This document shows positions 6,280 to 64,000 of a stretch of 64,000 nt of DNA, in pieces. Origin of the DNA: Cohnella kolymensis (GTDB lineage: Bacteria; Bacillota; Bacilli; Paenibacillales; Paenibacillaceae); the NCBI RefSeq assembly GCF_000829465.1, contig NZ_JXAL01000033.1, forward strand, positions 124,001-188,000, written 5' to 3'. A model generated the notes under the pieces. The model saw only the letters and a list, made by a program, of their open reading frames with translations. It was not told the origin of the DNA and did not search any database. The stretch's first letter is position 1. The number at the start of each line of letters is the position of its first letter. The position numbers and the translations under genes were made by a program.

Positions 6280-7575
6280 ATGAGCGATATTCAGCGCATC
6301 AGAGAACGCCTGGATCAGGCACTCTCACAATTTGTTCAGGACCACCCCATTCCAGGCCTAGCCGTCGGTATCGTGAAAGACTATCGGACGATATACGCCA
6401 AAGGTTTCGGTGTGAGTAATGTAACAAAGGGCGAACCGGTCGACGAAAAGACGTTATTCCATATGGCTTCCGTGTCAAAAACGCTGGTCGCGACCGGGAT
6501 CATGCAGTTGGCTGAGCGCGGAAAGATGAATTTGGACGGTTATGTTACGGAGTATCTGCCCTATTTTACGCTCTCGGACGACAGATTTCGGCTCATTACC
6601 GTCAGACAGCTGTTGAACCATACGTCGGGGATGCCGGATGAAGACGATTATGAATGGGATCGCCCGCAGTACGATAAAGAGAGTCTGGAGCGATACGTCA
6701 AAAGTATTGACGACAGACAGCTCATGTGGCATCCGGGCGAGCAATTCTTTTACAGCAATATCGGTTATGAAATACTCGGCGACATCATCGCCAAAGTGTC
6801 GGGTGTTTCCTTCGAGCAGTACATAAAGGAGAACGTCTTGCGACCGACAGGTATGGATTCCAGCTCCTTCTTAAAAACGGAGGCTGATGACGGTCAATTG
6901 GCGACGCCTCATATTTTGGGGCTGACAAAGGGTTACGGTGCGGAAGTTAGTGAGATTTTCCCTTATAACCGTGCTCATGCTCCAAGCTCCACGTTATACG
7001 CAAGCGCGGAAGAGATGTGCCGTTATGCGATTGCCCAATTGCATCAAGGCGATGTGCCCGGCGGTCAGAGGATTCTGCAGCAGGTAAGCTATAACGAATT
7101 GTGGAAGAAGTATGCCTCAACAGATTATGGTGCGGAGATGGAAGGGATCGGGCTATCTTGGTTCTTGGGAGAATATAAAGGCATCCGAATGGTGTCGCAT
7201 GCCGGCAGGGACACAGGCTTCCGCAGCAACCTCATACTGCTGCCTGATGAAGGAATTGCTGTGAGCGTCATGACGAATTCCGATTATGTAGGACTGAAAA
7301 TTGTGTACACCACTATTCTAGATGTCCTGCTGGGCGAAGATATCTCTCGTATCAAGAGGTCCATCGCCCATCACCTGGCGCAAATAACGGATTCCAGCGG
7401 CGTTGATGCTGCCATGAAGGAGTACGCAGACATTCAGCAGAATAATCCGGATCGCTATCTTGTTCTGCAAGGTGAATTCAACTTCATTGCAGATACGCTT
7501 AAGGAGAGAGGATTCTCAGGCGAAGCGGGCAAGTTATTGCAATTATCATCTATGTTGTTTCCGGAAGCGTCTTAA
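6280..7575 (+). CDS. serine hydrolase of the class C beta-lactamase family
   Basis: 431 residues with the three catalytic elements of the beta-lactamase/penicillin-binding family: SxxK as SVSK (Ser64, Lys67), YxN as YSN (158-160) and the third box as HAG (307-309) in place of KTG. The HAG variant is usual in esterase/D-amino peptidase-like members (EstB, Pbp4*, DAP types) rather than in true cephalosporinases. There is no signal peptide, so it is probably cytoplasmic or exported non-classically. The C-terminal 80 residues form a short extra domain. RBS GGAGG sits 6 nt before the ATG. The gene ends just before a bidirectional terminator at 7584. Confidence 0.9.
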   Translation: MSDIQRIRERLDQALSQFVQDHPIPGLAVGIVKDYRTIYAKGFGVSNVTKGEPVDEKTLFHMASVSKTLVATGIMQLAERGKMNLDGYVTEYLPYFTLSDDRFRLITVRQLLNHTSGMPDEDDYEWDRPQYDKESLERYVKSIDDRQLMWHPGEQFFYSNIGYEILGDIIAKVSGVSFEQYIKENVLRPTGMDSSSFLKTEADDGQLATPHILGLTKGYGAEVSEIFPYNRAHAPSSTLYASAEEMCRYAIAQLHQGDVPGGQRILQQVSYNELWKKYASTDYGAEMEGIGLSWFLGEYKGIRMVSHAGRDTGFRSNLILLPDEGIAVSVMTNSDYVGLKIVYTTILDVLLGEDISRIKRSIAHHLAQITDSSGVDAAMKEYADIQQNNPDRYLVLQGEFNFIADTLKERGFSGEAGKLLQLSSMLFPEAS

Positions 7576-7583
7576 TGATTAAT

Positions 7584-7613
7584 AAAAAGTCAGCGGAAAT
7601 CCGCTGACTTTTT
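7584..7613. terminator. bidirectional Rho-independent terminator
   Basis: A 13-bp inverted repeat (AAAAAGTCAGCGG, loop AAAT, mirrored arm) is flanked by A and T tracts, so it works in both directions. It serves the plus-strand serine hydrolase and the minus-strand nucleotidyltransferase; the stop codon of the latter lies inside the stem. Confidence 0.9.
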
Positions 7614-8192
7614 GCTATGTATCACCGTAATCTTACTCCAGATCCCCTTCCAGTTCTTCTTTACGATGCGCTCTTCATAGATTACTGCCCCTTCTTTCGT
7701 TTCATCAAAATAGGGCGTCGGTTTCACCGCCAATTGAACAACATCTTCTATCCCGCAAGGAGCAGTTAAAATAACCTTATGATCATTGTTTAATGTCAGC
7801 CCCAAAGCCGTCGCTGTTTCCGGAAACTTGGAAATGGCATCTACCGAGGATGTATACGGCGGTATGCCGCTCACCCTATGCATTCTTGCCTCATTTTTGA
7901 CCGACCAAGGAATTTCAGGATCGATCCTGCGCAGCTTTTCTTCGAGTCTCTTTTCTTCCGCTTCATCGATGTGAAGCTCATCGAAATAGATGACATCCAC
8001 ATCGGGCAAATGCGCTCTTTCACTAAAGCCGTGCAGCACATCCCAGATTTTAGAGCGTACAAATCCTGCACATACCCACCAATCCGGCAAATTTAAACGA
8101 TGAACGGTTTTCAATATATGCATCATCCACTCGTCTTCCTCGACCAACCGGATGATGTCCCGTTCATTTTCTATTTTCAACAAGCCTGTCAT
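7590..8192 (-). CDS. DUF925-type nucleotidyltransferase family protein
   Basis: About 200 residues matching the DUF925/pfam06042 family: the conserved core is LPDWWVCAGFVRSKIWDVLHG followed by DVDVIYFD, with carboxylates that resemble the Asp pair of the nucleotidyltransferase fold. No in vivo substrate is known for the family. I place the start at ATG 8192, which overlaps the stop of the upstream phosphotransferase as ATGA; GAGAGG lies directly upstream. A TTG further in is an alternative. The last codons and the stop run into the terminator hairpin at 7584-7613. Confidence 0.85.
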   Translation of the reverse strand: MTGLLKIENERDIIRLVEEDEWMMHILKTVHRLNLPDWWVCAGFVRSKIWDVLHGFSERAHLPDVDVIYFDELHIDEAEEKRLEEKLRRIDPEIPWSVKNEARMHRVSGIPPYTSSVDAISKFPETATALGLTLNNDHKVILTAPCGIEDVVQLAVKPTPYFDETKEGAVIYEERIVKKNWKGIWSKITVIHSKKSADFR

Positions 8193-9151
8193 CCTCTCAA
8201 TAAAAACGGTTCTCCACACAAGTACTTTTTGCAGAAGCGGTTTGCTATGGCGGGCACACTTTCAGACAAATATTCGTATTCATCCGGATTTACCGAATGG
8301 AAAGCATACCCTCTAAATACTGCCCACAGAAAAAAAGCCTCTATTTGCCGCTCATAGTTATCCGGCAGCGCATGATACTTTCCATATGCTTCAACAAACA
8401 ATTGGCGACGATCCGGCGTTAAATGCAGAAGAGTTTCCGCGACATCAAACAGGAAATATCCAAAGCCGCATGCCGAAAAATCAATCGGCCGCGCTTGCCC
8501 GTTATGGAAAACATAGTTGCTTTCATGGAGATCCGAATGAATGAGCCCCCATGACTCTTTCGTCGCGGGCAGTCGTGTAAATTCGCGGTCGATCACTGCC
8601 TCGGTCTGGAGAATAACCTCATATGTGGCGGAGTCGATTATTCCGTTGTCAACCAAGAGCTTGATCTGCTTACACGAAGTGTGCATGTGATCCGTTCCGT
8701 ACAACGGGCGATTGAAGCCGGCAGGAACTGTCCAGCTTTGAGCATGCGTATGAAGAGTGGACATTAGAGAGCCTAGCGAAAGGATTTCAGCGGGTTCAGG
8801 CTGTCTGTCCAGAACTTCTCCTTCCACCCAATACTGCATCGTAACATAGACAGATTTATGTTCATCTGCCGTTACTAGCTTGGTCACTAAATGGCCGGTT
8901 TTATTTCTCATAGGCAAAGGAGTAACCAGCTCTGTGTCCTTACTGATCGCTTCAAGCCATAAAAGCTCGGATTCTATCATTGTCAGCGAATAGGATGGAT
9001 TGAGAATTTTCAATAGGAATGAACCAGAGCTCGACTTCGGCACCACACGAAAAGTGACGTTGTCACTCTGTCCGAGAAATTCGATCCTGCAGTCGGACAT
9101 CTGATAATGATCCAGAGCATGATGTGCGATGCTGTAATCATTTTGCGACAA
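8189..9151 (-). CDS. phosphotransferase (APH / choline kinase-like fold)
   Basis: Protein-kinase-like phosphotransferase with Brenner motif IHSDLHESNYVF and metal-binding IDFSACG, the hallmark pair of aminoglycoside phosphotransferases, homoserine kinase type II and fructosamine kinases. The phosphate acceptor cannot be told from sequence; resistance should not be assumed. The most likely start is TTG at 9151, 8 nt downstream of GGGGG; ATG 9166 is possible but its own ribosome site is missing. The gene overlaps the DUF925 nucleotidyltransferase by 4 nt, so the two probably act together. Confidence 0.82.
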   Translation of the reverse strand: MSQNDYSIAHHALDHYQMSDCRIEFLGQSDNVTFRVVPKSSSGSFLLKILNPSYSLTMIESELLWLEAISKDTELVTPLPMRNKTGHLVTKLVTADEHKSVYVTMQYWVEGEVLDRQPEPAEILSLGSLMSTLHTHAQSWTVPAGFNRPLYGTDHMHTSCKQIKLLVDNGIIDSATYEVILQTEAVIDREFTRLPATKESWGLIHSDLHESNYVFHNGQARPIDFSACGFGYFLFDVAETLLHLTPDRRQLFVEAYGKYHALPDNYERQIEAFFLWAVFRGYAFHSVNPDEYEYLSESVPAIANRFCKKYLCGEPFLLRG

Positions 9152-9243
9152 GAGATCTACCCCCATATATTTACGAGCATGCAGCAATTCGGTACAATGT
9201 CTGAATAATGCACTCTATAACATACACAAAGGAATGAATAAAA

Positions 9244-9882
9244 ATGGAGTTTCCTCATATTTGGTTGTTTTTGGCCGCAGTCGTTGTTCTCGTCGTTACT
9301 CCAGGCCCGGCTGTTCTTTACATCATTGCGAGAAGCATCGATCAGGGAAGAACGGCCGGTCTATTGTCGGTGATGGGGATAGCCGTCGGCGGATTCGTTC
9401 ACGTGATCGCAGCAGCTGTCGGAATCTCCGCATTCCTTATGGCGTCCTCATTGGCCTTCAATATCGTCAAATATTTGGGAGCCGTGTATCTTTTATATCT
9501 AGGCTGCAAGAAGTTGTTCTTCTCACCTGCTGCGACGCCAGCGGAAATGCCAAAATTCGAGGCCAAAAAGCTTAAGAAAGTGTTTTTCGAAGCGGTTATC
9601 GTTGCCATTTTCAATCCGAAAACAGCACTATTCTTTCTCGCCTTTTTGCCGCAATTCATCTCACCCTCTGCCGGATCAACTCCACTTCAGTTTTTAACCT
9701 TAGGGTGTATTTTTCTTGTCATTGCTTTTATCAGTGACGGAACTTACGCGATTCTTGCATCCAGTCTTCGAAAATGGGTGACAGGGAGCCCCCTGAAATC
9801 CAAAATCCAAGACTGGTTTACCGGCGGAGCCTATATCGCAATGAGTATGGTTGCTGCCTTTACGCATGGCGGGCAAAAATAA
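9244..9882 (+). CDS. LysE/RhtB-family amino-acid exporter
   Basis: 212 residues, six hydrophobic segments, with the family signature TPGPAVLYIIARS near residues 20-32 and a second conserved stretch FNPKTALFFLAFLPQF. RhtB/LysE translocators export amino acids or their analogues by proton antiport. RBS AAAGGA is about 10 nt before the ATG. The gene runs divergently from the phosphotransferase pair and convergently into the helicase gene, with only 2 nt between the two stops and no terminator between them. Confidence 0.9.
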   Translation: MEFPHIWLFLAAVVVLVVTPGPAVLYIIARSIDQGRTAGLLSVMGIAVGGFVHVIAAAVGISAFLMASSLAFNIVKYLGAVYLLYLGCKKLFFSPAATPAEMPKFEAKKLKKVFFEAVIVAIFNPKTALFFLAFLPQFISPSAGSTPLQFLTLGCIFLVIAFISDGTYAILASSLRKWVTGSPLKSKIQDWFTGGAYIAMSMVAAFTHGGQK

Positions 9883-9884
9883 TC

Positions 9885-12800
9885 TCAATTCGACCAGAAT
9901 ACGAGGGATTTGAGGTCACGTTCCGCCCCAAGCTGCAGAAGCCGCTTGCCGGCGTCCGTGTCTGTTACTGTCTCTCCATCCCATAGATCCACTGAAATTT
10001 TTACTAAACCTTGCCTGCGGATGATAGATTGGAAGGCCGCTTTAAGCAGCGCCGCTTGTTCTTCCACAGGAGTGACCTCCGCATGGGAACCAGGCAGACT
10101 AAATATCCGCTTGCCATTGTTCTCAATCCAGTACAACCACCGATCACCTTTCAGCACCAAATAATTCCCCGGCTTACGGGCGAAGGACGCACCTTCAACC
10201 GATTGAGGCCAGTCGATGATTAACCCGAACGGGTTGGCCGGATCTGCGGAAGAGAGTACAGTGGACGATGTGTCCGAAGACACAGGCAGCGGCTTACGCA
10301 CCGTGTCGCTGAGCTCCCGTGTCGTGAACTGCAGCGTCGACATTCCTTTAATGAACGTGCCCCTTGTCAGTGCGCCCCACTCTTCCAAACGTTTTAACAT
10401 CGGATAGAAAGTATCCCAAGAGAATGGAGCAGCTTTCGCAGTCAGCTCCTTGTTGATCATTCCGTATCCCTTCAGCAAATGGTTCACCCAGGTCAAAACC
10501 GGCGACTCTGTTGCTGCGGCTTCCTCTCCTTGCGCAGAATATGCGTCCTCCTCGGACAGCATGCTTGTTGCGTACCAACGGCCCAGACCGGATCCCGTTT
10601 TCGCCCATCTGGAGCTTTTGACGTTGGCATGAAGCCGAAGAGGAGCGAACTGATCATTGGAGACGCGGCCTTCCCATACGAGCTCCAGTAAGTCCGGAAT
10701 CAGCTCCGAAGGCGGCTTGTCCGTTTCCCGGCTAAGCCGGGTGAGGAAGCTGGCGCCCCCCTCCTCCAAAAGTTTCAGAAGCTTCGGATGTTTGGTCGGC
10801 TCCTGTGTCGTACCGTTCAAGAAAGGCTCGTATAAAGACTTGGAGCTCGCAAGGAAAAAGGCGATTTTGCCTTCTTTGTCCCCTTCGTCTTTGCAGCCGA
10901 TCCATATGACTTCGCCCGATGCGCAAAGCAGATCAAGCTCTTCCTTCCGGTAATTCACCAGCCGGGTCGGAAAAAAATCGACTCCCAGTGAGACAGCGGA
11001 AAGAACAGTCCTTGCAGCCGTTCGATCACAGTGCGAAGCCCATTGCTGCCTTGCTGTTGTGTTCCTTGAAGCGCGTGCTGCATCATGGCGATTTGGCCGC
11101 ACCAGCGTGCCGGTTCTACCGGCTCTGCCTGATTGCGCGCATGGCGGATCGACAGCCGCACCAGCCGAGAGGCGACTTTGGAGCTTGTCCATAGCCGCTC
11201 CTCTTCATCGGCAGCGTGCGGCGCTTGCTCAATTAACCCGTTCGCAAGCAGTTGCTCCACCGCTTTTGTCGCTCGTTCTAAAGTAAGTGCGGGGTATCTG
11301 TCGCATAGATCGGCTTCAGTGAAGGAAAGCAGATGGTCGACGTAGCGCCCGAGCACGAAATTAACGGATTTCTCCGTCTCCGGAAATTCCGCGTACATTT
11401 CCTGTTCATCGGAACTGATCCAACGATATTCTCCGTCACCCTCTAGATCCAACGGCAGCGCACGTTCCTGATCCTGCAGCAGCTGCAGCCATTCCAGCGC
11501 CAGTTCCCCTGCCAGCTTCGTTAATTCTTGGGCGGTCAAGTCACCGCGGGTTTTAAGCAGAGCAGCGAGCTCGTCCGCATTGGTCGGACGGCGCTCAGGC
11601 TCGCTCATCCGACGGCTCTCCTGTTGTATGACTTCCTCGCTTATCGCATTGCCGAGCGTCTCCGATCCGAAAAGCTGACCGGCCATTTCCTTGCTTACGT
11701 TCATCAACTGGAGACGGATGGTTTCGTCCATTCCGTCGCCTTCGTATATTTTCATGTTCACATAATCCATTAGAAACTGTGAGGCGAAAGGAGAGGGAAA
11801 CGGCGTCTCCCGCACGACAAACTCCATCTCATTTGCCGCTAATTGTCCCAGCACACGTTTGAGGTCGTCATAGCCCAAATAATCGTGGAGGCATTCGGAC
11901 ATGGCTTCCCTTAGGTAAGGAAAATGTTCCGCATAGGGCATCGCATCGCGGAGGAGCGCTTCGCTGCGAAGCCGTTTCTGCCACATTGGAGTGCGGCTGA
12001 AGCTGCGAGAAAGCAGCAGCGAAGTCTCCGCGATTCTGCGGAAAGCGATTCCCAGCAGCGGTGAACCGCTAATGCCTTCCGTTAGCAGTTCCTCCAGATT
12101 CGCAGGTGTCACATGATAGATCGCCTGAAGCCATGACGAATCCCACTCGGGCAGCACGAATTCAATGCCGTTGTCCTTGGCGTTACCATATAAGCGGTAC
12201 GGAAGCAGCCTCTCGAACTGCCGCTCAATGGCGAGCAGCCAGGCGCGATTCACCTTGCGGCCGAAGTGGTTATGCAGAATCACATGTGTCTGGTTCATCA
12301 CATCGCGATAATACTCAATGACGATCTGCCGATCCGTAGGCAATGCGCAGGCATGATGTTGCGAACGCACAAGGGTAAGCAGCTCTTCCGAGGTCAACCT
12401 GTCCATTCCGTAAACCTCTTGCAACCAATCGACCGCTTGCTTATTCAGCTCCGCTTCGTTGGTCGACGCCGTTTCGTCCGAGAGTTGCAGCCGTGCTTCA
12501 ACTGCACGCAGAAAAGCGCCGATTTCCACACCGACTTCATAACTGCGGGCGCCCGCTTCGTTGCGCCAAAAAGGAATCTGGCTGAACCGGTTACCCGCCT
12601 CCGACACATAAACCCGATCATTACGGATCTCGCGAACCATCCACGAGCTTGTCCCAAGTTGAAATACGTCGCCGACGCGGGTCTCGAGAATGAATTCTTC
12701 ATCGAGCTCGCCGAGATGGGCCCGGCTGTCCAGATGATGCACCGGATAGTTGCCGCTCTGCGGGATGGTTCCCGCACCGGTTAAAGCGGCCATCGATGTG

Positions 12801-14278
12801 TTTTTTCTTTTGCGTATCATGTTTGTGTCGCGATCCCAGTCGAGAAGCGGGCGGGCGAACGGGTAGAATCCGGCCAACACCTGCAGCATTTGTTCCAACC
12901 GTTGCAGAGGATAATGGTGATAACTGTCACTATGCATGATAAGGCGGTGCAGACTGGCCACCTTCCAATCGCCCATGGCCGCCATTGCGGTCACGTGCTG
13001 GGAAAGCACGTCCATCGGACCTTGCGGGATACGAATATCTTCTATTTCACGATGGGCAATCTGTCGACTTAGCACTGCAAGCTCCGGTAAGACAGCTTTC
13101 TGCCGTGCCAACAGGAGTCCGCAGCTGGCTTCCCCGACGGCATGGCCGGCCCGGCCGATCCGCTGAATGCCTCTTGCGGCTTCCTGCGGAGAATCGACTT
13201 GTATAACCAGATCGATATGACCGACATCGATACCCAGCTCAAGCGATGAGGTCGCCACAATACAGCGAAGCGTCCCCTCCTTGAGCATCCGTTCCACTTC
13301 AAGACGCCGCTCCCGGGATATGCTGCCGTGGTGGGAACGTGCCATTTCGTAGCCTACATGATCATTAAGGCGTAAACATAATCTTTCGCACAATCGACGA
13401 CTGTTCACAAACAGCAATACCGAGCAGCAGCCTTCCATCGCATGCATAATACGTTCCAACAGCGGCTGCCACACTTCTTCCCTCGTCGTGATCGGCTTGC
13501 TATTATCCGGCATGGTGACCAAGACGCGGATGTCTTTGCTCATCGTGCTCTCTACGATTGTCACCGGGCGGGGGCTCATTCCGATCACGTCCGAATCCGT
13601 AGATTCCTCCGTTTCCTGCCATCCCGCTAGAAAACGCGCAACACGATCCAGCGGCTTCTGCGTTGCCGACACCCCGATGCGCTGAGGCGCTTGCATGCAT
13701 CCATGTGCCAGCCGTTCAAGGGACAGCGACAAATGTGCGCCTCGCTTATCGGCCGCCAGATCGTGAATCTCATCCACAATCACTTGTTCAACCGTCTGCA
13801 AGATCTTGCGTCCTTTGTCCGAGGTCAGCATGATAAAGAGTGATTCCGGCGTGGTGATCAGCACATCCGGAGGATTACGCATGATGGCTGCCCGTTTGCT
13901 TTGGCTCGTATCACCTGTCCGGACTTCGCATCGGATCCCCGGCCATTCGACATCGCTCTCAGCCGCGCGGCCTTCCAACTGTTCGACGAACTGGAGCACA
14001 TGATGATGAATGTCATTGTTCAGAGCTTTCAGCGGAGTGATATATAAGATTTTGACGCCTTTATTCGGGCTTGAGTTTTTTGATCGGACTACATTGTCCA
14101 GACACGGCAGCAATGCCGCCAACGTTTTGCCTGATCCTGTGGGAGCCGCAATTAAAGTATGGCTGCCTTCATTAATGGCTTGCCAGGCCTGCTTTTGGAC
14201 ATCGGTAGGCAGTCCGAATGATTCCGAGAACCAGGCGGAAAGCACAGGATGAAAAGGGATTGCTCTCTCCTCGGACAC
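9885..14278 (-). CDS. lhr: Lhr-type large DEAD/DEAH helicase, disrupted by a -1 frameshift
   Basis: Superfamily 2 helicase of the Lhr class: Walker A PTGSGKT (46-52), motif II DEIH, SATQ and motif VI QRIGRAGHAVGE, followed by a long Lhr C-terminal region. Frame 1 (14278-10955) encodes 1107 residues and ends at a TGA just after HWESIFFRPGW. The homologous continuation FFPTRLVNYRKEELDLLCASGEVIWIG lies in the -1 frame and runs to 9885. Joined, the protein has about 1464 residues, the usual Lhr length. The switch point is a run of seven T (complement of A at 10971-10977) reading T TTT TTC, a good slippery heptamer. The start is GTG with GGAGG 9 nt upstream. It could be a sequencing error, a true mutation or programmed/transcriptional slippage. 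Lhr proteins act in nucleic-acid repair. Confidence 0.85.
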
Positions 14279-14291
14279 TCCGGTCGCCTCC

Positions 14292-15107
14292 TCAGCTTGT
14301 CGTTGTAAACCTTATATCCAGTACTTGCCCACTCTCCACGAAACCAATCTTCTTATAGATTTTATTGGCGTCCGGATTCTGTGAATCTGCGTATAACATC
14401 GGTACTAAAGACTCGCTTTCTAGTATTGCACACAATCCGGTAACGATAGCAGTTGCATATCCGTTCTTGCGATAAGAAGCCGGGGTATAAACAGCATTGA
14501 TCCTTGCTTGTCTCGGAGCACGATGCGCGATATTAGCCATCGATACCGGACGCTCATCCACAATCCAGAGGTGCAAGTTACCGCTTTTGATCATCCCCTC
14601 TGCCACAGCAAGTTGGCTTACGGGATCAACTGTCTCCTCATAGGCTGCCTGCAAAAAGCCTGCCAGAAACTCCGCTATCGTCTCCACATGTTGTTCAGCA
14701 GCAGCTTGAATTCTACCGGGAATATTGGCTTTCACTATTTGTGGACAGCAGTAGGCTTGCAGCAGCTTATAGGAATGGTATTCAACATTGTGTACCTCAG
14801 AAAAAGCCCATGCAAACATCTCCGCTGCTCGGGGTTCTCCCGTAATTCCGGGCGACGGTGTTCCTCCCAAATAATCAATTAATTGTTTGATCATTACTTT
14901 TCTTTGCTCGTCCGCCACTTGATCTGCAATCCATAACCAACCATTGTTACCGGGTGTTTGAGCAAAAACCATTGTTCCGTCATTGTATTTTAGACATGTT
15001 GCGTCTTCTGACTCCGTAATTCTGTGAATTAAATTGTACTGAACTTCATCTTTCATAAAGAGTTCTTCACTCAACAGGGGGTCGTTTGCCGATAGTTTTT
15101 GTAACAT
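14292..15107 (-). CDS. GNAT-family N-acetyltransferase
   Basis: 271 residues. The C-terminal half carries the GNAT acetyl-CoA site: beta-4 NAVYTPASYRKNGYATAIVTGL (R-x-x-G-x-A variant) and the later ANKIYKKIGFVESG. The N-terminal half is a second, divergent lobe as in the two-domain acetyltransferases of Bacilli. The acceptor is unknown. GAGG lies 6 nt before the ATG. It sits 13 nt from both its neighbours in a minus-strand run (MerR, stalk protein, GNAT, Lhr helicase). Confidence 0.88.
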   Translation of the reverse strand: MLQKLSANDPLLSEELFMKDEVQYNLIHRITESEDATCLKYNDGTMVFAQTPGNNGWLWIADQVADEQRKVMIKQLIDYLGGTPSPGITGEPRAAEMFAWAFSEVHNVEYHSYKLLQAYCCPQIVKANIPGRIQAAAEQHVETIAEFLAGFLQAAYEETVDPVSQLAVAEGMIKSGNLHLWIVDERPVSMANIAHRAPRQARINAVYTPASYRKNGYATAIVTGLCAILESESLVPMLYADSQNPDANKIYKKIGFVESGQVLDIRFTTTS

Positions 15108-15120
15108 ACGTTTCCTCGTT

Positions 15121-16272
15121 TCATTTCAGCTTAAAGCTAAACATGTGGTCCTTATTATCAAAAATACTGTGATAGGAAAAATGGAGCTGTCCGTCTTTTT
15201 CACTTTCGAATTTAATATGGTCACCATGATAGGGTACATCGTTCGTCTCAGCATATTCTTGTTCTTGGGCGTTCAATTGTTTGTAGATCTGCGTCGTATC
15301 GCCGGTTTCCAAGTCAATAAGCGTCAAAAGACCCGTTGTGTTCGGCCTGACTAGCGCATATGTTTGCCCGATTCCCTCGACTGAGAACGTTTCGTCGTTC
15401 CCGGTCATTGCGACCAGATCATACTCTTTCGTTAATTTACCGGTCGCATCAAGCAGAAATATCGCTTTTCCATCAGTCATGACCTGATGGCGGCCGTCGA
15501 AAGTCACATTCGGCGTATACCGCTGCCAGTAATGAACCTTGGTTTGTTTCACAATGGCCCCCTTAACGATTAATGCGGTATACACATCCGTATTGAGCAG
15601 CGGCTCTCCGTAGTAATCCTCTACAATCAGCTGGTCTACGCCCCCGGATGAAGCAAGCTTCATTGTGCTGAACCTTTGCAAATCAATATTCATAGCTCCA
15701 AGCAGATTCGGTTGGCTGTCGTAAGGCTTCGCTAGAAACACCTGACCGTTTTTTCGATTCAGCCAATAGAATGAATTCACGCCTATCACTGTATCGAAAT
15801 CAAGCTTATGGGTTATATCGACTGTCTGACTTTTACTATTCCAATTTACCGAAGCCCCCAGTATTTCCGCTGCTGCGCGGAAAGGAACATACACATGGCT
15901 TTCTTTCACGATCGGCGTGGCAGAGAGCTTGACTTCAGCTCCATTCCTAGTCACGGTCGCTTTTCCTAGAGTAAGAACAATGGTCTGATCCGGCCGTGTA
16001 ATGATCACCTTCTTCGTATGACTTTGCCACACTACAACCGCTTTCAATGCGCTGGAAATCTCCCGCAGCGGTAGATATACAGTGCCCTTTGACACGTAAG
16101 GGTTCGATTCCGGTGTATATAATGCGCCATTCATCATAATCGTTATCGCTTGACTGGCAGTAGCAGCAGCGGACACCGAATGATAGGACGAAATTACACT
16201 TCCGGCAAGCAGCCCTGCTGCCAGACAAGCGGAAATGGCGGAAAGCTTTAACCTCGGTAGCGTTGATTTCAT
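15121..16272 (-). CDS. secreted protein with copper-amine-oxidase-type stalk domain
   Basis: 383 residues. A signal peptide (MKSTLPRLKLSAISACLAAG, cleavage near VSA-AA) is followed by a copper amine oxidase N-terminal-like (stalk, pfam07833) domain at about 42-150, with the typical VYLPLREISSAL and VYVPFRAAAEILGA repeats. The rest is a beta-propeller-like region with repeated hydrophobic strands (FLLDATGKLTKEYDL, LTLIDLETGDTTQIY). Such stalk domains are abundant on Paenibacillus surface proteins; the C-terminal part has no recognised enzyme motif. It follows the MerR gene by 28 nt. Confidence 0.82.
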   Translation of the reverse strand: MKSTLPRLKLSAISACLAAGLLAGSVISSYHSVSAAATASQAITIMMNGALYTPESNPYVSKGTVYLPLREISSALKAVVVWQSHTKKVIITRPDQTIVLTLGKATVTRNGAEVKLSATPIVKESHVYVPFRAAAEILGASVNWNSKSQTVDITHKLDFDTVIGVNSFYWLNRKNGQVFLAKPYDSQPNLLGAMNIDLQRFSTMKLASSGGVDQLIVEDYYGEPLLNTDVYTALIVKGAIVKQTKVHYWQRYTPNVTFDGRHQVMTDGKAIFLLDATGKLTKEYDLVAMTGNDETFSVEGIGQTYALVRPNTTGLLTLIDLETGDTTQIYKQLNAQEQEYAETNDVPYHGDHIKFESEKDGQLHFSYHSIFDNKDHMFSFKLK

Positions 16273-16300
16273 AGAAAATCATCATCCCTTCTGTTCTTTT

Positions 16301-16660
16301 TTACACCAATAACAGTTTTACTTCTTCGAGCTGCTTCTCCAGCTTCATTCTTCTTTCACGCAACAAATCTTCCTCATTGCGAAGCATCTCCAGGTGGTTG
16401 GTCAAATGTAGAATCACCTCTCGCACCAATCCTTGTTCCCCGCATCCGATCGCCCTTTTCAAGTCAAACAGCAATTGAATATCTTTTAAGGACAAACCCA
16501 TCCCTTTCAATTCCAGAATGACCTGAAAATCCAGAACTTCCTTTTGCCCATATTCCCTCCGGCTCTTAACACGTTTGGGTGTTACAAGATTCAAATCTTC
16601 ATAGTGCCGGACCGTTTCTTTGGTGGTGTTCAGCAGTGCGATAAACTCGCTGATTTTCAT
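16301..16660 (-). CDS. MerR-family transcriptional regulator
   Basis: 119 residues: a winged helix-turn-helix (KISEFIALLNTTKETVRHYEDLNLVTPKR), a second recognition segment GMGLSLKDIQLLFDL and a long coiled-coil dimerisation helix (RNEEDLLRERRMKLEKQLEEVKLLL). There is no C-terminal ligand domain and only one cysteine, so it is not a classic metal sensor. GGAG lies about 8-11 nt before the ATG. The divergent intergenic region contains a MerR-type promoter (16689-16719), pointing to control of the membrane gene at 16761 and probably of itself. Confidence 0.9.
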   Translation of the reverse strand: MKISEFIALLNTTKETVRHYEDLNLVTPKRVKSRREYGQKEVLDFQVILELKGMGLSLKDIQLLFDLKRAIGCGEQGLVREVILHLTNHLEMLRNEEDLLRERRMKLEKQLEEVKLLLV

Positions 16661-58183: not shown

Positions 58184-58213
58184 GAAAAGAGCCGGCTTGC
58201 TCTAAGCCGGCTT
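58184..58213 (-). terminator. terminator of the permease/dehydrogenase operon
   Basis: Minus strand: AGCCGGCTT, 5-nt loop, AAGCCGGCT, then CTTTTC and T tract. Lies about 80 nt past the permease stop at 58292. Confidence 0.85.
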
Positions 58214-58291: not shown

Positions 58292-59725
58292 TTAGGGAAC
58301 CAGCTTTTCTGCAGTTTCTATCGGCAGTGGCGCAGCCAGCACCGGAGAGTCGGCCTTCTTCTTGCCAAATTTGAAATAGTAGAACAAATAACACAAGGCG
58401 ATAAAACCGAAGCCGTAATACAAGGAAGTGCGCTGGGTCGGATCAATGGCTGTAAACACGAAGATGGCGATGCAGAGGAGAATGCATAAAATCGGCAGGT
58501 ATGGGAAGAACGGAACCTTAAACTTCAGATCTTTCAGTTCATTGCCTTCACGGAGATATTGCTTGCGGAACTTATACTGTGTCAGAGCGATGACCAACCA
58601 GGTCATCGTACCTCCCAGTCCGCTGACTGACAGCAGCACGACGAAGACAGTCTCCGCCGCCACCACGCTCGTAAGCAGAGAGATCAACGAAAAGGCGAGC
58701 GTAACAAGTAACGCATACATAGGAACGCCGCGGGACGATAATTTTCCGAACACGGCAGGTGCCATTTTGTCTTTGGAAAGCGCCCACAAGAGCCGTGTGC
58801 TCGCGTACAGTCCGGTATTGCCGACAGATAGAATCGCCGTCAAGATGACAAAGTTCATAATGTCGGCGGCATACGGAATGCCCACCATATCGAAGACGGT
58901 TACGAAGGGACTTTCAAGCAGTCCTGCGTCTGAGTAAGGAATGATGGCTGAAACGACGATGATGGCCAGCACATAAAAGATCAAAACACGAAATACGATA
59001 TTCCGGATCGCTCTCGGGATATTGCGGCCCGGATTCTCCGTTTCCCCAGCGGCCACGCCCATAATTTCCGACCCCTGGAACGCATACACCACCGTCATCA
59101 TGACTACAAGCACGCTGGAAAATCCGGTCGGAAACAGGCCGAAATCAGTGAAGTTGCTGAAGAATGGCGTTGCCCGGTCTTGTAAGCTTGTGATCCCGAA
59201 CATCGCGGCGCCGCCGATAATAATAAACAGGATGACGGCGAATACTTTGATGCCGGCAAACCAGTATTCGGATTCTGCGAAACCTCGGGTCGTCAAGGCA
59301 TTTAATAAGAAAAGCAGCACCACAAACACAGCAGACCAAACCCATACCGATACGTCAGGGAACCATCGCTGCATCAAGATGCCTGCCGCCGTGAACTCCA
59401 GCCCTACGGTGGTTACCCAGCTCATCCAATACAGCCATCCCACCATAAAGCCGGTGCCCGGTCCTACGAATTTTCTCGCATGGGACTGAAAGGAGCCGGA
59501 AACCGGCATCACGACCGACAGTTCGCCCAAACAGGCCATTACCATGTACATTAGCAAACCGGAAATCAGGTAAGCGACAACAGCGCCTCCTGGCCCTGCC
59601 TCATTAATCGTATAACCCGCTCCCATGAAAAGCCCGGTTCCAATGACACCGCCTAGCGAAAGCATAAACAAGTGCCGGCTTTTCATTGAACGTTTCAATT
59701 GCTCTCCATTCTCTTGCGTGCTCAA
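58292..59725 (-). CDS. amino-acid permease (RocE/RocC-like APC family)
   Basis: 477 residues, twelve hydrophobic segments. Starts like RocE: RSMKSRHLFMLSLGGVIGTGLF; typical motif PYAADIMNFVILTA in TM8 and PVSGSF in TM3. RocE/RocC take up arginine, ornithine and related amino acids in B. subtilis; this copy likely imports the substrate of the catabolic operon. It is the last gene of that operon, 84 nt after the dehydrogenase gene, and precedes a terminator. Confidence 0.88.
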   Translation of the reverse strand: MSTQENGEQLKRSMKSRHLFMLSLGGVIGTGLFMGAGYTINEAGPGGAVVAYLISGLLMYMVMACLGELSVVMPVSGSFQSHARKFVGPGTGFMVGWLYWMSWVTTVGLEFTAAGILMQRWFPDVSVWVWSAVFVVLLFLLNALTTRGFAESEYWFAGIKVFAVILFIIIGGAAMFGITSLQDRATPFFSNFTDFGLFPTGFSSVLVVMMTVVYAFQGSEIMGVAAGETENPGRNIPRAIRNIVFRVLIFYVLAIIVVSAIIPYSDAGLLESPFVTVFDMVGIPYAADIMNFVILTAILSVGNTGLYASTRLLWALSKDKMAPAVFGKLSSRGVPMYALLVTLAFSLISLLTSVVAAETVFVVLLSVSGLGGTMTWLVIALTQYKFRKQYLREGNELKDLKFKVPFFPYLPILCILLCIAIFVFTAIDPTQRTSLYYGFGFIALCYLFYYFKFGKKKADSPVLAAPLPIETAEKLVP

Positions 59726-59809
59726 ACGACTTCACCTCTTCTTAGGATTGTTTGCTTGTTTGCTACGCAATCATTTATTGTTTCACGCCCGAAAAGGACG
59801 GCAACAACC

Positions 59810-60955
59810 TTACACTTCAAGCAAATCGCTGACCGTTGGCGCGAACATCTCGAATCCCGTTTCTCTTTGGTACCGGTTTTGTTTTCTGGCGTGGTCTAAA
59901 AGGTTGTATGTATTTTTTCTGCACAGCTTCTCGATATCGTCGATAACGGCTTGCGGAGTCGGCTCGATCAACCCGAAAATCACAGCGTCATAAAAGCGGA
60001 TAGCTCCCAAGTTGGCGACAAAATCGTTGACAATGTCGATACCCCGCTGCTTCAGGATGTCATCCCCTTCCGTCGAAATAGGGATATTCGCGGCTTCGAC
60101 GACCAATTCCGCTCGTACTTTGTGCGCATTCGTTCCGTTGATCACGTCTTCCAACGCAGCGGGAATCAAAATATTGCAATCCACATCCAGCCAGTCCGTG
60201 TTTGGCCGCATCGTATAGCTGGATTCGAAGAACGCCGGATTCATCTCCCCGTGCCCGTTTTTGTGCGCGATCAACTTGGCGATGTCCAATCCGTCTTCAC
60301 AAGTGACGAGCAGGTTCGCGTCTGAAATACCGACGATTTTGTAACCCATCTGGTGCATTTTGAACGCACAGCTCGCGCCGACGCAGCCAAACCCCTGAAT
60401 GACCACCGTGGCCCCGTGGCGTCCGCTTTTGAATTTCCACGCTTCATCGGCAGCGAACGCACAGCCGTAACCTGTGACGGCATCATTGAGAAAGAAGTCA
60501 TCGATTTGGGTACCGAGCAGCCTGTCGAATTCTTGAATCCCTTTGAGCACTTTCGGATTTTTTTTCATCGATTTCGTGAGCGGGATGCCCACCCCAAATT
60601 CATTGAGCACCTTCAACACATCGTCATAACGTGTGCCCAAATCGCTGCCCAACGATACGCCTGCATCGATATAAGGCATCATGGCAATTAAAAATCTCCT
60701 TAACACGTCAAAGGCGTCCGCAGCTTTGTAATTGTACGAAATTCCTCCTTTGCAACCGCCAGTGGTACTGGATTCGCCGGCCGTGTACTTGTAGGCCATC
60801 GCCTTCGCCAGCCGTTCCACCTCTTCTCGGGTAACTGATGGATGCATCCGAATGCCCCCGCCGGCGTAACCGCTTACAAGGTTATGTATTACGAGCCATC
60901 CTTTTGCTTCGGTTTCCGTATCATTCCACTCGACGACCAGATAAGGCCTCTTCAT
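59810..60955 (-). CDS. Glu/Leu/Phe/Val dehydrogenase family protein
   Basis: 381 residues. Substrate-binding and catalytic Lys are in AMAYKYTA (Lys56) and GGCKGGI (Lys69); the catalytic Asp is in SLGSDLGT (Asp105); Rossmann motif GFGCVGASC. NAD(P)-dependent oxidative deamination of an amino acid to a keto acid, direction and substrate unknown. The dimerisation segment GGGIRMHPSVTREEVERLA fits the family. The start ATG 60955 follows GGAG by 11 nt. In the operon the dehydrogenase likely removes ammonia from an amine released by the Rieske oxygenase. Confidence 0.85.
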   Translation of the reverse strand: MKRPYLVVEWNDTETEAKGWLVIHNLVSGYAGGGIRMHPSVTREEVERLAKAMAYKYTAGESSTTGGCKGGISYNYKAADAFDVLRRFLIAMMPYIDAGVSLGSDLGTRYDDVLKVLNEFGVGIPLTKSMKKNPKVLKGIQEFDRLLGTQIDDFFLNDAVTGYGCAFAADEAWKFKSGRHGATVVIQGFGCVGASCAFKMHQMGYKIVGISDANLLVTCEDGLDIAKLIAHKNGHGEMNPAFFESSYTMRPNTDWLDVDCNILIPAALEDVINGTNAHKVRAELVVEAANIPISTEGDDILKQRGIDIVNDFVANLGAIRFYDAVIFGLIEPTPQAVIDDIEKLCRKNTYNLLDHARKQNRYQRETGFEMFAPTVSDLLEV

Positions 60956-60978
60956 CTGTTTTGTACTCCTTTGGCACT

Positions 60979-62223
60979 TTAGGATTGGGCAACCGCCACT
61001 TCTTTCTCCTTGCTTACTTTCAAAGATTGCAAGTAATAACTCGAGATCGAGCCCAGCATGCATAGCCCAATCAGAAAAAGGAAGATCCGGTCATATCCCG
61101 CGCTACCGAAGCGATCCAACCAAATCCCGAACAGCGCGTGAACAAACGTATCCGGCAAGTAACCGAACACCGACGCGATTCCGACCGCCGTACCAGCCAC
61201 ATGTCTGGGGATGCCCGCCTCTTCTACGGTCGCCCACATGATGCCGATGGTGGTGTAGGCGGCCGCTGCGGTCAACAGGAAGATCGCGGTGACCAAGAAC
61301 AGATTCATGGAACCTGACAAGAAGAAAGCAAGTAGAAGTACGGCGGTGAACAAGAAGCAAAAATTCAATACTTTGGATGCGGAACCGATTTTATCGGATA
61401 TCATGCCACCTATCGGAGCGCTCACCAAACGCATAAAATTCGTTCTCAGTACGGCGATGAGTCCCGAGGCAGTGGCCGTCAGACCCAGCACGTCAGATAA
61501 ATAAGGAGTCAAATACGTTTGCCCGATATACAGGCCATATCCAGCGAAGATTATGGCGGAGATCAGCCAAATACGCGGCATTCTGAACATGGCGGCTAAC
61601 TGATTTCCAGTAACCTTCGCCAATTGCGCCTGTTCCTCTCCCGCCTGATTTTCACGGAATAATGCGTATACAAGGGCAGCGGCAACAAAACTGGAAATCG
61701 CGTAAAGGATAACAATCGTTTTCAACCCTGTCGTCGTCGAATCAAAATGTGCAAACAGTGCTAGAGCAGCAAATGAAAGCAATGTACCTACGAGCCCGAT
61801 GAATGACTCGAAAAATCCGTACATTTTTCCTTGTTCATCCTTGCTGCCGGTTAACCGGATCGCTTTCACAGTCGCTGCCCAATAGGCGAAGCCTGTGGAT
61901 ACCCCGAGCAGCAGCCAAATGATAATGGAGGTGGAATAAACCATGGTGAATGCAAACCAAATATTCAGCACACCCGTTGCGATAAAAGAGACGATCAAAA
62001 TCCATCTAGTGCTGAAACGGTCGGCCATCCAACCCCCGGGAATAAACAAAACCATATGGACCAGCGCATAAAAAGTCAGCAGCAAGCCGATCTGCTCGTT
62101 AGTCGCATGCAACCCCGTTTTGAGTGCGTCATAAAAGATGAACTTGATGTAGGGCACCGCGTAGGCCGAAGCGGAACCGAATGCGAGCGAAAACAAAATC
62201 AGATACTTTTTATAGGTTCCCAA
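60979..62223 (-). CDS. MFS transporter
   Basis: 414 residues with twelve membrane helices and the MFS loop motif GGWMADRFSTRW between TM2 and TM3 and GGMISDKIGSAS in the second half. The closest general type is a single-substrate or nitrate/oxalate-like MFS; the substrate is probably the same as the oxygenase. Starts with TTG 62223 (AAGG about 8 nt upstream). It lies 23 nt before the dehydrogenase gene and 21 nt after the hydroxyacid dehydrogenase. Confidence 0.85.
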   Translation of the reverse strand: MGTYKKYLILFSLAFGSASAYAVPYIKFIFYDALKTGLHATNEQIGLLLTFYALVHMVLFIPGGWMADRFSTRWILIVSFIATGVLNIWFAFTMVYSTSIIIWLLLGVSTGFAYWAATVKAIRLTGSKDEQGKMYGFFESFIGLVGTLLSFAALALFAHFDSTTTGLKTIVILYAISSFVAAALVYALFRENQAGEEQAQLAKVTGNQLAAMFRMPRIWLISAIIFAGYGLYIGQTYLTPYLSDVLGLTATASGLIAVLRTNFMRLVSAPIGGMISDKIGSASKVLNFCFLFTAVLLLAFFLSGSMNLFLVTAIFLLTAAAAYTTIGIMWATVEEAGIPRHVAGTAVGIASVFGYLPDTFVHALFGIWLDRFGSAGYDRIFLFLIGLCMLGSISSYYLQSLKVSKEKEVAVAQS

Positions 62224-62244
62224 GGCGCTACCTTCTTGTCTCTG

Positions 62245-63198
62245 CTAGTTGACGAGATTCACAGGACTTCCTCTCGCGAATGCAACAAGATTCCGGATCG
62301 ATACGTGCAAGATGCTTTCAATCGACTCGCGGGTGTAGTATCCGACGTGCGGCGATAACACAACGTTATTCATTCGGATTAATGGATCGTCATGTGAAAG
62401 GGGTTCCTCATCAAAGACGTCGATTCCTGCGGCGGCGAGCTTTCCGGAAGATAGTGCGTTCTGCAACGCTGACGAATCTACGATTTCCGCCCGGGCCGTG
62501 TTGATGAACACCGCCCCGTTCTTCATCGCAGCAAACTGCGGTGCTCCGAGAAATTTCCGCGTTTGGTCCGTGTAAGGCAGATGCAGCGAGATGATATCCG
62601 AGCGGGAGAGCAGCTCATCCAGAGAAACGAATGTAATGCCCAGTTCCTCCGCACGTTCGTGACTCGGAGTTCGCGTCCAGCAGACGACTTTCATACCAAG
62701 CGCCCGGCATAATTGAGACATTTTGGTTCCGATGGTGCCGAGCCCGATCAAGCCGACCGTTTTCCCATCCAGCTCCATGTTCAGGTTCAACGGCGCCCAT
62801 CGCCCTTTTTGCATATTCGCATGATTTTGCGGAATGTTTTTGGCGACCGATACAAGCAAGGCAAGCGCGTGTTCGGCGACCGCATTCGCACCGTAACTCG
62901 GCGCGTTGGCGACCTTAATACCTTGCTTGGCGGCATAATCCACGTCAACGTAATTTTTGTATCCGGTTCCTGCGAAAGAGATGAATTTCAGTTTCGAACA
63001 GTTCATCAAAACTTGGTTTGAAATATCTCCCCACAGCAGAAGGGCGTCGGCGTCCAGGATCCTGTCGAGATACTCGCGATCGCTTCCGGGATTTCCTTTA
63101 TACAGCCGGAAGTCCGCCAGCTGCTTGAGTTCGCTTAAATGCCGGTCCAAGAGCAGTTGTTCGCATTGATCATCCGCATTTGGCAATACGATTAGCAT
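62245..63198 (-). CDS. D-2-hydroxyacid dehydrogenase
   Basis: 317 residues of the D-isomer-specific NAD-dependent 2-hydroxyacid dehydrogenase family: Rossmann GLGTIG (152-157), catalytic Arg236 (NTARAEIVD), Glu265 (DVFDEEP) and His284 (SPHVGY). Relatives reduce glyoxylate, hydroxypyruvate or phosphoglycerate. ATG follows GGAGG by 6 nt. It is 30 nt downstream of the Rieske gene. Confidence 0.9.
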   Translation of the reverse strand: MLIVLPNADDQCEQLLLDRHLSELKQLADFRLYKGNPGSDREYLDRILDADALLLWGDISNQVLMNCSKLKFISFAGTGYKNYVDVDYAAKQGIKVANAPSYGANAVAEHALALLVSVAKNIPQNHANMQKGRWAPLNLNMELDGKTVGLIGLGTIGTKMSQLCRALGMKVVCWTRTPSHERAEELGITFVSLDELLSRSDIISLHLPYTDQTRKFLGAPQFAAMKNGAVFINTARAEIVDSSALQNALSSGKLAAAGIDVFDEEPLSHDDPLIRMNNVVLSPHVGYYTRESIESILHVSIRNLVAFARGSPVNLVN

Positions 63199-63228
63199 AA
63201 GAAACCTCCGACAGTCGTCATTTCAGGG

Positions 63229-64000
63229 CTAAGCCTCCAAAGCCCCCTGAATCATGCGGTGGAACCGGCGAAGCGCATGCTCGGTCGGAGAATAGCGGCC
63301 GCGCTCGAATGCTTGCGAACGAAATCCAATCTGCGCTTTTTCCACCAATTTAATGTCTTCTCTCCGAAGCTGCTCCACAAAATTGATATTCTCCTGCTGT
63401 TCGGGAGTCGGCTCCTGGTTCACAAAATAATAGAAGTAGTTCGCTATGGTCGTATTTTCATCGAGCGGAGTGAGTACGGTGAGAGCGATATTCCCGGGAC
63501 CCGGCGACACGCTGAAAATCATGTTCGGCCACAGCCAATAATAACGGCCTTTCTGTACTTCGACCTCATCCAATGGGACGTCGCCCAGTTTAGCCGACGG
63601 TTTGACGGAGGCGGTCTGAATGATGCAGTTTTGCTTGTCAATGAACAGGTAATTTTTCAAATCGAACGTACTAGCGAATACCGGATGCGCGATCGCACAA
63701 TGATCGCATTCCAAATAATTGTCGATATAAGCCTTCCAGTTTGCCTTGATCGTGCGTTTTTCCGAGCTGTATTTTTGCAATCTGCTCAAAAACGCGAACT
63801 GTGACAGGTCGTCAAAAAACTCGCCGTTGGCCTCTTTGAGCGACTGGGCGTTTTCGTCCAGATTGACGAACACGAGGGAAGCTTCCGTCTCGACCCGAAT
63901 ACCGCGCAAACAGGTGTCGCCTTCGCAGAAGCTTTCCGGAGATTGCTTGAAATTCGGGGCTTGATGTAGTTGGCCGTTCAGTTTAAACGTCCATCCGTGA
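63229..64000 (-). CDS. Rieske non-haem iron oxygenase, alpha subunit (cut by window end)
   Basis: 257 codons are open to the window edge. The Rieske second motif HGWTF is at the very end of the visible part, then the C-terminal catalytic domain with iron site YLECDHCAIAHPVF (His-x4-His) and a downstream Asp. The layout fits single-protein demethylases acting on quaternary amines (GbcA-like, stachydrine demethylase) or related alpha subunits. It needs a separate reductase, not visible here. First gene seen of the minus-strand operon. Confidence 0.87.
   Translation of the reverse strand, partial: HGWTFKLNGQLHQAPNFKQSPESFCEGDTCLRGIRVETEASLVFVNLDENAQSLKEANGEFFDDLSQFAFLSRLQKYSSEKRTIKANWKAYIDNYLECDHCAIAHPVFASTFDLKNYLFIDKQNCIIQTASVKPSAKLGDVPLDEVEVQKGRYYWLWPNMIFSVSPGPGNIALTVLTPLDENTTIANYFYYFVNQEPTPEQQENINFVEQLRREDIKLVEKAQIGFRSQAFERGRYSPTEHALRRFHRMIQGALEA

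Follow-up and report, generated by a model that had tools for sequence, protein, structure and literature searches.

A 23-gene run in Cohnella kolymensis combines a group Va-like Rieske oxygenase with an amino-acid dehydrogenase and may serve trimethyllysine catabolism

The 64,000-nucleotide stretch of Cohnella kolymensis DNA analysed here (contig NZ_JXAL01000033.1, G000:C33:124001-188000; hereafter the window) ends with five minus-strand genes, among them those of a Rieske oxygenase and of a dehydrogenase of the Glu/Leu/Phe/Val (ELFV) family, which form the 3' end of a longer run of 23 genes. This run may be devoted to the catabolism of an amino acid whose side chain bears a quaternary (trimethyl)ammonium group, most likely N6-trimethyllysine (TML), a reading to which we assign a probability of about 0.5. 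The broader statement, that an amino-acid dehydrogenase and a Rieske enzyme of group Va act together in the catabolism of a quaternary-ammonium compound, is quite probable, whereas TML itself as the substrate falls somewhat short of even odds. We regard the run as a real and rare variant of quaternary-ammonium catabolism.

Free TML stems mainly from the breakdown of methylated proteins such as histones, as stated in PMC7764450, and gut bacteria convert it to delta-valerobetaine, described as an obesogen in PMC11773067. If our reading is true, genes for aerobic TML breakdown in Firmicutes would mean that trimethylamine can arise from more than choline and carnitine, would give a function to a so far unassigned clade of amino-acid dehydrogenases, and would extend group Va Rieske oxygenases to a new substrate class. 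This gene set was not described among the matches listed in open-licence PubMed Central literature on TML breakdown, on Rieske enzymes with amino-acid dehydrogenases and on Bacillus carnitine clusters, which is no proof of its absence.

Extent and conservation of the run

The preliminary description of the window had placed a five-gene operon at its end, and the positions and families of these five open reading frames (ORFs), all of them on the minus strand, were confirmed (Pfam, above curated cut-offs; Table 1). The operon itself turned out to be far longer when the sequence past the window was also read (assembly of 4.34 Mb in 34 contigs): the five genes close a one-strand run of 23, counting the split DgcA and EtfB genes as one each, of which 18 lie outside the window and which reaches the contig end 17.3 kb past it. 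In the order of transcription, the run begins with an aldehyde dehydrogenase, truncated where the contig stops, and continues with 3-hydroxyacyl-CoA dehydrogenase, CoA-transferase A and B, enoyl-CoA hydratase, acyl-CoA dehydrogenase and thiolase. These are followed by a GntR/FCD regulator, a DgcA-like flavoenzyme, EtfA-like and EtfB-like proteins (an electron-transfer flavoprotein pair, ETF), a DgcB-like membrane Fe-S protein and a cysteine-rich (CCG) protein. The last part consists of an M20 amidohydrolase, an OpuC-type ABC importer (ATPase, permease, binding protein, permease), the Rieske oxygenase, a D-2-hydroxyacid dehydrogenase, a major facilitator superfamily (MFS) transporter, the ELFV dehydrogenase and an amino-acid permease. 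The labels DgcA, DgcB and OpuC are presumptive and follow the nearest models and structures.

A pattern-seeded, non-exhaustive scan of genome contigs with the Rieske protein gave 19 loci, and the proteins of the run were compared by tblastn with 18 loci (L006-L023 and L005, plus L002 from the genome itself). Among these 18, only that of Brevibacillus fluminis (L005; Rieske protein 73% identical) keeps the surroundings, in the order GntR, DgcA, EtfA, EtfB, DgcB, CCG, Rieske, D-2-hydroxyacid dehydrogenase and ELFV. Upstream it has a block of aldehyde dehydrogenase, 3-hydroxyacyl-CoA dehydrogenase (HBDH), two CoA-transferase genes, enoyl-CoA hydratase, acyl-CoA dehydrogenase and thiolase, with 67-88% identity to the window run. 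In this comparison of gene sets between related genomes, of the kind that the preliminary description had proposed, 16 genes share their order in the two organisms (proteins 45-88% identical), with four genes inserted in B. fluminis between thiolase and GntR (a tartrate/D-malate-type dehydrogenase, a second ETF pair and a second DgcB).

Such a run could also consist of several separate catabolic units that adjoin by chance on one strand. The B. fluminis run lacks the genes for M20, OpuC, MFS and permease proteins, and the regulator between the beta-oxidation and DgcA blocks is flanked by gaps of 88 and 125 bases, with another 84 bases between the ELFV and permease genes. All other genes overlap or are at most 45 bases apart, however, and together with the gene order common to two genomes this makes a chance neighbourhood improbable.

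The gene set is rare within the genome samples searched, which overlap one another (family, phylum, class and order). Relatives of the Rieske protein occur in 1 of 295 family genomes (E<=1e-40) and 1 of 398 phylum genomes (E<=1e-60), in both cases the genome itself. Relatives of the ELFV protein (E<=1e-80) occur in two of 295 family genomes (its own and G004) and two of 398 class genomes (its own and G442). Within the family (n=11) and order (n=15) of G442, only G442 itself has one, and at E<=1e-60 the protein is present in 3 of the 13 genomes holding L005-L017.

Residues of the Rieske oxygenase and the dehydrogenase

Besides its Rieske domain (Table 1), the oxygenase has a Ring_hydroxyl_A catalytic domain (PF00848, 4.2e-25), both above cut-off. 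CntA is its nearest solved structure (6y8j, E 5.6e-66, 226 bits), followed by 3n0q (99 bits) and 3vca (93 bits), which we take to be Stc2. In CntA numbering, for which a 20-residue offset was derived from E205, window residues Y199, E201, C202, C205 and Y292 align to Y203, E205, C206, C209 and Y295. All 24 Bacilli rows, of which 22 are distinct, retain the Glu and the Cys pair and carry Tyr or Phe at position 203, and 23 of them have Tyr at position 295; this count leaves out the non-Bacilli relatives L018, L019, L020 and L022, where the motif pattern matched nothing, and L021 and L023, which were not extracted. In CntA, according to PMC7948474, Y203 holds the trimethylammonium group and Y295 makes a polar contact to the substrate; an aromatic residue at 203 marks group Va (carnitine, choline and benzalkonium oxygenases), whereas the demethylating group Vb has Asn. 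The bridging Glu and the Cys pair adjoin the mononuclear iron (PMC10952381 and PMC7948474). The aligned residues support the assignment of the window protein to the quaternary-ammonium group V, subgroup Va.

Proline betaine and glycine betaine are demethylated by Stc2 or GbcAB together with DgcAB. Such systems share with the run a Rieske protein accompanied by a DgcA-like flavoenzyme, an ETF-like pair and a DgcB-like membrane Fe-S protein, and the run might accordingly demethylate an alpha-amino-acid betaine of this kind, the Rieske enzyme taking the first N-methyl group, DgcA-ETF-DgcB the next, and the ELFV enzyme deaminating. The best NCBIfam model of the Rieske protein is indeed the glycine betaine monooxygenase GbcA, and an OpuC-type importer is present. 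However, the GbcA score is far under the cut-off (151 vs 670 bits), CntA is a much closer solved relative than 3vca, the DgcB-like protein is divided over two genes, and the amino-acid dehydrogenase and beta-oxidation genes are additions, the latter left unexplained. At the CntA Y203 position the window protein has Tyr and 3vca has the Asn of group Vb, which further lowers the likelihood of demethylation; we consider it decidedly unlikely.

Catabolism of carnitine or gamma-butyrobetaine is another alternative, in which the CoA set would activate gamma-butyrobetaine and hydrate it to carnitine, the Rieske enzyme would release trimethylamine and malic semialdehyde, aldehyde dehydrogenase would form D-malate, and the ELFV and D-2-hydroxyacid dehydrogenases would have side functions. 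The Bacilli loci L006-L017 (about 6800-15400 in each) hold a cluster with the appearance of an L-carnitine pathway of Firmicutes that runs through D-malate: sigma-54 regulator (12/12), reductase (11/12), group Va Rieske (12/12), aldehyde dehydrogenase (12/12), beta-decarboxylating dehydrogenase (11/12) and a betaine/carnitine/choline-type (BCCT-type) transporter, which is likewise in all 12 if two families are pooled (families named from L008 and L016 only). After B. fluminis, the nearest relatives of the window Rieske protein (50-55%) sit in this type of cluster, the B. fluminis run includes the tartrate/D-malate-type dehydrogenase, and the same enzyme set degrades L-carnitine via D-malate in Acinetobacter baumannii (PMC11353897). 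The CntA/CntB pathway (A. baumannii; YeaW/YeaX in E. coli) and the window run have in common a group Va Rieske protein with equivalents of Y203, E205, the Cys pair and Y295, an aldehyde dehydrogenase in the cluster and quaternary-ammonium import. In contrast to that pathway, the window run is without a CntB-type reductase and adds the amino-acid dehydrogenase, the D-2-hydroxyacid dehydrogenase, the DgcA-ETF-DgcB-like genes and the CoA-transferase/beta-oxidation set. Neither a BCCT transporter nor a beta-decarboxylating dehydrogenase was found in the run, and the carnitine route leaves the ELFV gene unexplained, though Rieske, permease and aldehyde dehydrogenase genes accompany it across genera.

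A tree of 26 Rieske rows (without L020 and L022; with a long-branch warning for L046 and the second copy of L013, and several forks unresolved) also bears on this alternative. The window and B. fluminis proteins form one clade (100/100), outside a second (95/99) made of the twelve carnitine-type loci and two identical copies. A third (100/99) unites the Rieske proteins of the other three clusters with an ELFV gene and two copies beside BCCT-like genes. Carnitine catabolism seems unlikely, if less so than demethylation.

The missing reductase and the 5' end of the Rieske gene had been expected outside the window, and a search upstream for a ferredoxin reductase and a regulator had been suggested. 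The Rieske gene does start there and the GntR/FCD regulator is present, but no ferredoxin reductase or CntB-type reductase was found among the genes from the Rieske gene to the contig end. The nearest candidate is on another contig (G000:C14) and is 63% identical to the reductase adjoining the Rieske gene in Bacillus carnitine-type clusters. This homologue, presumably YumC, is probably a housekeeping enzyme, because each of five genomes searched has a 59-66% identical copy.

The ELFV protein probably starts at 60955 rather than 61063, since the first 36 residues of the ORF are without counterpart in five relatives, save a few residues in B. fluminis. Its clade extends over six genomes (the window organism, G004, G442, B. 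fluminis, Pseudalkalibacillus decolorationis and Neobacillus niacini; 63-76% identity to the window protein). In all six members, the lysine of the GPxKGG stretch of glutamate dehydrogenase (GDH) is a glycine (Gly68), and the lysines of MAYK and GGCKGG are retained. The Gly68 column, which we take to be that of GDH Lys89, has Lys in four of four solved GDHs, and also in three homologues from B. fluminis that presumably are GDHs. This lysine (C. symbiosum Lys89, E. coli Lys92) binds the side-chain carboxylate, according to PMC2723916 and PMC8784811, and in view of its replacement throughout the clade a function as glutamate dehydrogenase was rejected. Two other ideas were not retained: an acidic residue replacing the GDH lysine was dropped, as the column considered varies (E in four, K in one, V in one), and no claim is made for a tyrosine at the Ser380 place, where the alignment has a three-residue gap. 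In the genome, the ELFV gene is the only PF00208 match (E<=0.001), and an ordinary glutamate/leucine dehydrogenase of this family was not detected.

Gene company of the dehydrogenase and a possible route

A group Va Rieske gene is found in the ELFV cluster of five of the six genomes, that is, in four of five without the window organism, and in three of four after B. fluminis is also dropped, both having been brought in by this locus. P. decolorationis and N. niacini were chosen because each holds another Rieske gene elsewhere in its genome. The two genes are separated by about 50 bases in G442, whereas P. decolorationis has 1.8 kb and N. niacini 4.9 kb between them. Within the stretches read, and including the window organism, the clusters also contain a permease at least 64% identical (4/6), an aldehyde dehydrogenase (5/6), a D-2-hydroxyacid dehydrogenase (4/6) and a thiamine pyrophosphate (TPP) enzyme (2/6). 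Three other ELFV clusters contain a relative of the window permease with 64-70% identity. This permease had been called RocE-type; its best curated model is instead S-methylmethionine permease, at a score below the cut-off (Table 1). In Bacillus aerolatus (L013 1104-3717), a second, diverged Rieske gene stands directly before a permease 68% identical to that of the window, and this genome gave no ELFV match at E<=1e-60.

The two clusters with a TPP enzyme are those of N. niacini and P. decolorationis. N. niacini has a TPP enzyme above its model cut-off (601 vs 495), an M20 amidohydrolase, an L-2-hydroxyglutarate oxidase at the cluster end (600 vs 299), and two aldehyde dehydrogenases, both below cut-off, one nearest betaine-aldehyde dehydrogenase (593, cut-off 669) and the other nearest alpha-ketoglutaric-semialdehyde dehydrogenase (671, cut-off 770). 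In P. decolorationis, the TPP enzyme is likewise above cut-off (718 vs 539), and a CaiB-type gene convergent with the Rieske gene has succinate-glutarate CoA-transferase as its best model (464 bits, cut-off 750). An acyl-CoA dehydrogenase gene, also convergent with the Rieske gene, has acryloyl-CoA reductase as top model (405, cut-off 640) and glutaryl-CoA dehydrogenase as second (387, cut-off 470), the latter also being the third best solved structure. The TPP enzymes, whose models are named merely TPP-binding proteins, may decarboxylate a 2-oxo acid. Such gene company would provide for deamination and decarboxylation, then for oxidation of the aldehyde, cleavage of the C-N bond and oxidation of the semialdehyde, with a C5 dicarboxylate as the end. 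A substrate that would need these steps is a trimethylammonio amino acid as long as lysine, and this is what the clusters suggest: six carbons minus CO2 give five, as in glutarate, which points to the lysine skeleton.

Gene content, gene order, conservation and the residues of the Rieske and ELFV proteins are observed, whereas the substrate, the order of steps and each activity of the following route are inferred. The compound would be taken up by the OpuC-type importer, which lies directly upstream of the Rieske gene and has a binding protein most like those for glycine betaine, carnitine or choline, and by the permease and the MFS protein; the M20 amidohydrolase may free the amino acid from conjugates. 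The ELFV dehydrogenase would deaminate it oxidatively to the 2-oxo acid; the D-2-hydroxyacid dehydrogenase could interconvert a D-hydroxy acid and a 2-oxo acid. Shortening of the 2-oxo acid from the deamination, perhaps by the TPP enzyme and an aldehyde dehydrogenase in the two relatives, would give an omega-trimethylammonio carboxylate, to be shortened further by CoA-transferase, acyl-CoA dehydrogenase, hydratase, hydroxyacyl-CoA dehydrogenase and thiolase; in the window organism this would be beta-oxidation of a C5 betaine with CoA-transferase recycling. The Rieske enzyme would then hydroxylate the carbon beside the nitrogen, releasing trimethylamine and a semialdehyde for the aldehyde dehydrogenase to oxidise, and the DgcA-ETF-DgcB-like module would oxidise the methylamines into the quinone pool, its candidate substrates being trimethylamine, dimethylamine or a methylated amino acid. 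The gut DavB/DavA route (PMC11773067) has the same presumed substrate and a C5 betaine intermediate; that route consists of lysine 2-monooxygenase and amidase, whereas here a dehydrogenase would deaminate first and the Rieske enzyme cut the C-N bond afterwards. We tentatively put forward, as a possibility well short of even odds, that this is an undescribed aerobic pathway in which a dehydrogenase dedicated to TML and dependent on NAD(P) deaminates it before it is shortened, and in which trimethylamine is cut off by the group Va Rieske enzyme and oxidised by the DgcA-ETF-DgcB-like module, with two lineage-specific ends: glutarate in Neobacillus and Pseudalkalibacillus, and beta-oxidation in Brevibacillus and the window organism. 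According to the preliminary description, the genes would take a betaine or amino-acid-like substrate all the way from uptake to oxidation. The kind of substrate is supported by the Rieske marks, the importer and the clustering of ELFV and group Va Rieske genes in the other genomes; completeness is not, given the genes of the run beyond the window.

Several observations weigh against TML catabolism. The window and B. fluminis Rieske proteins form a clade apart from those of the other ELFV clusters; that the ELFV gene occurs with two distinct Rieske clades speaks for a functional link, yet leaves room for different substrates. In G004, no Rieske gene is present in the stretch read, and M14 peptidase and MFS genes follow the ELFV gene. 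The clusters of the window organism and B. fluminis contain no TPP enzyme, and with the N. niacini enzyme as the query (that of P. decolorationis was not used) the best matches in both genomes are only 24-33% identical. The window acyl-CoA dehydrogenase is of the short-chain acyl-CoA type and was rejected as a glutaryl-CoA dehydrogenase (289 bits vs cut-off 470, with better models above it; solved glutaryl-CoA dehydrogenase 41st among 46 matches listed), and therefore the glutarate route cannot be transferred unchanged to the window organism. The hydrophobic pocket residues of CntA were rejected as a sign of longer substrates: they are altered in all 24 Bacilli rows, carnitine-type rows included, and therefore do not separate substrates. 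The AlphaFold model of the ELFV protein (mean predicted local distance difference test score, pLDDT, 63; N-terminal domain mostly <50) is too poor for reading the side-chain pocket. Among solved structures, 2,4-dienoyl-CoA reductase is nearest to the B. fluminis DgcA-like protein, and trimethylamine dehydrogenase ranks lower. Finally, the assembly has the DgcA, EtfB and aldehyde dehydrogenase genes each split over two frames. Decay of the run seems less likely than base errors in the assembly, because the aldehyde dehydrogenase at the contig end is split as well, and so are two genes on another contig, the second Rieske gene and one that is acetolactate-synthase-like.

The DgcA-like protein comprises two ORFs in the window organism (PF00724, PF07992) and a single 682-aa ORF in B. 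fluminis, with the ETF-like genes next. DgcA, a subunit of dimethylglycine demethylase, is characterised by an OYE-type FMN domain fused to a pyridine-nucleotide-type domain and by its ETF and DgcB partners; the name is presumptive for the protein of the run, for which mycofactocin OYE 2 scores best among NCBIfam models, at a value under the cut-off. As marks of trimethylamine dehydrogenase we assumed a covalent-FMN cysteine and the active-site Tyr169. At the presumed cysteine site, Met is found in the B. fluminis protein and Ala in the trimethylamine dehydrogenase row 1djq itself; the B. fluminis protein also has no Tyr at the other site.

Two further loci (L050 6822-11332 and L052 10265-14604) combine a Rieske gene of group Va with a sigma-54-type regulator and a BCCT-like gene that has 31-33% identity to its L008 counterpart. 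Their Rieske proteins belong to the clade of the three ELFV clusters, and they are candidates for the import and cleavage of a ready-made omega-trimethylammonio acid.

Other features of the region

The features within the window are listed in Table 1. A terminator-like hairpin sits just past the last gene of the run; hairpin-like sites in the region are not above the number in shuffled sequences (8 found vs mean 8.2). No promoter-like sites were found on the minus strand of the region, and no Rfam family matched the run at gathering thresholds.

Table 1. Features of the run that lie in the window (minus strand; window positions)
Feature	Position	Evidence
Rieske oxygenase alpha subunit, group Va (by aligned residues)	63229..64000 (-), start at window-equivalent 64311, 360 aa in all	PF00355 1.7e-21
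D-2-hydroxyacid dehydrogenase	62245..63198 (-)	2-Hacid_dh_C PF02826 E 3.2e-61; 63% identical counterpart, same place in B. fluminis
MFS transporter	60979..62223 (-)	MFS_1 PF07690 E 1.6e-31; 47% identical relative near ELFV gene in genome G004
ELFV amino-acid dehydrogenase	59810..60955 (-), ORF opens at 61063	ELFV_dehydrog PF00208 E 1.2e-39; six-member alignment
Amino-acid permease	58292..59725 (-)	AA_permease PF00324 E 2.7e-132; NF008484 535 bits, cut-off 716
Terminator-like hairpin, 3' end of run	58190..58212 (-)	9-pair stem, 6 G-C

Frame-split genes on contigs C33 and C16 of the genome are located at L003 14637-15576 and 16535-18504, L004 7370-7805, L002/L047 and L065/L067. The second Rieske gene (L053 = G000:C16:90000-107000, 8589-16347) adjoins ORFs that by eye resemble a ring-hydroxylating dioxygenase small subunit and fumarylacetoacetate-hydrolase-like and extradiol-dioxygenase-like proteins, and this locus is probably an aromatic-ring degradation cluster.

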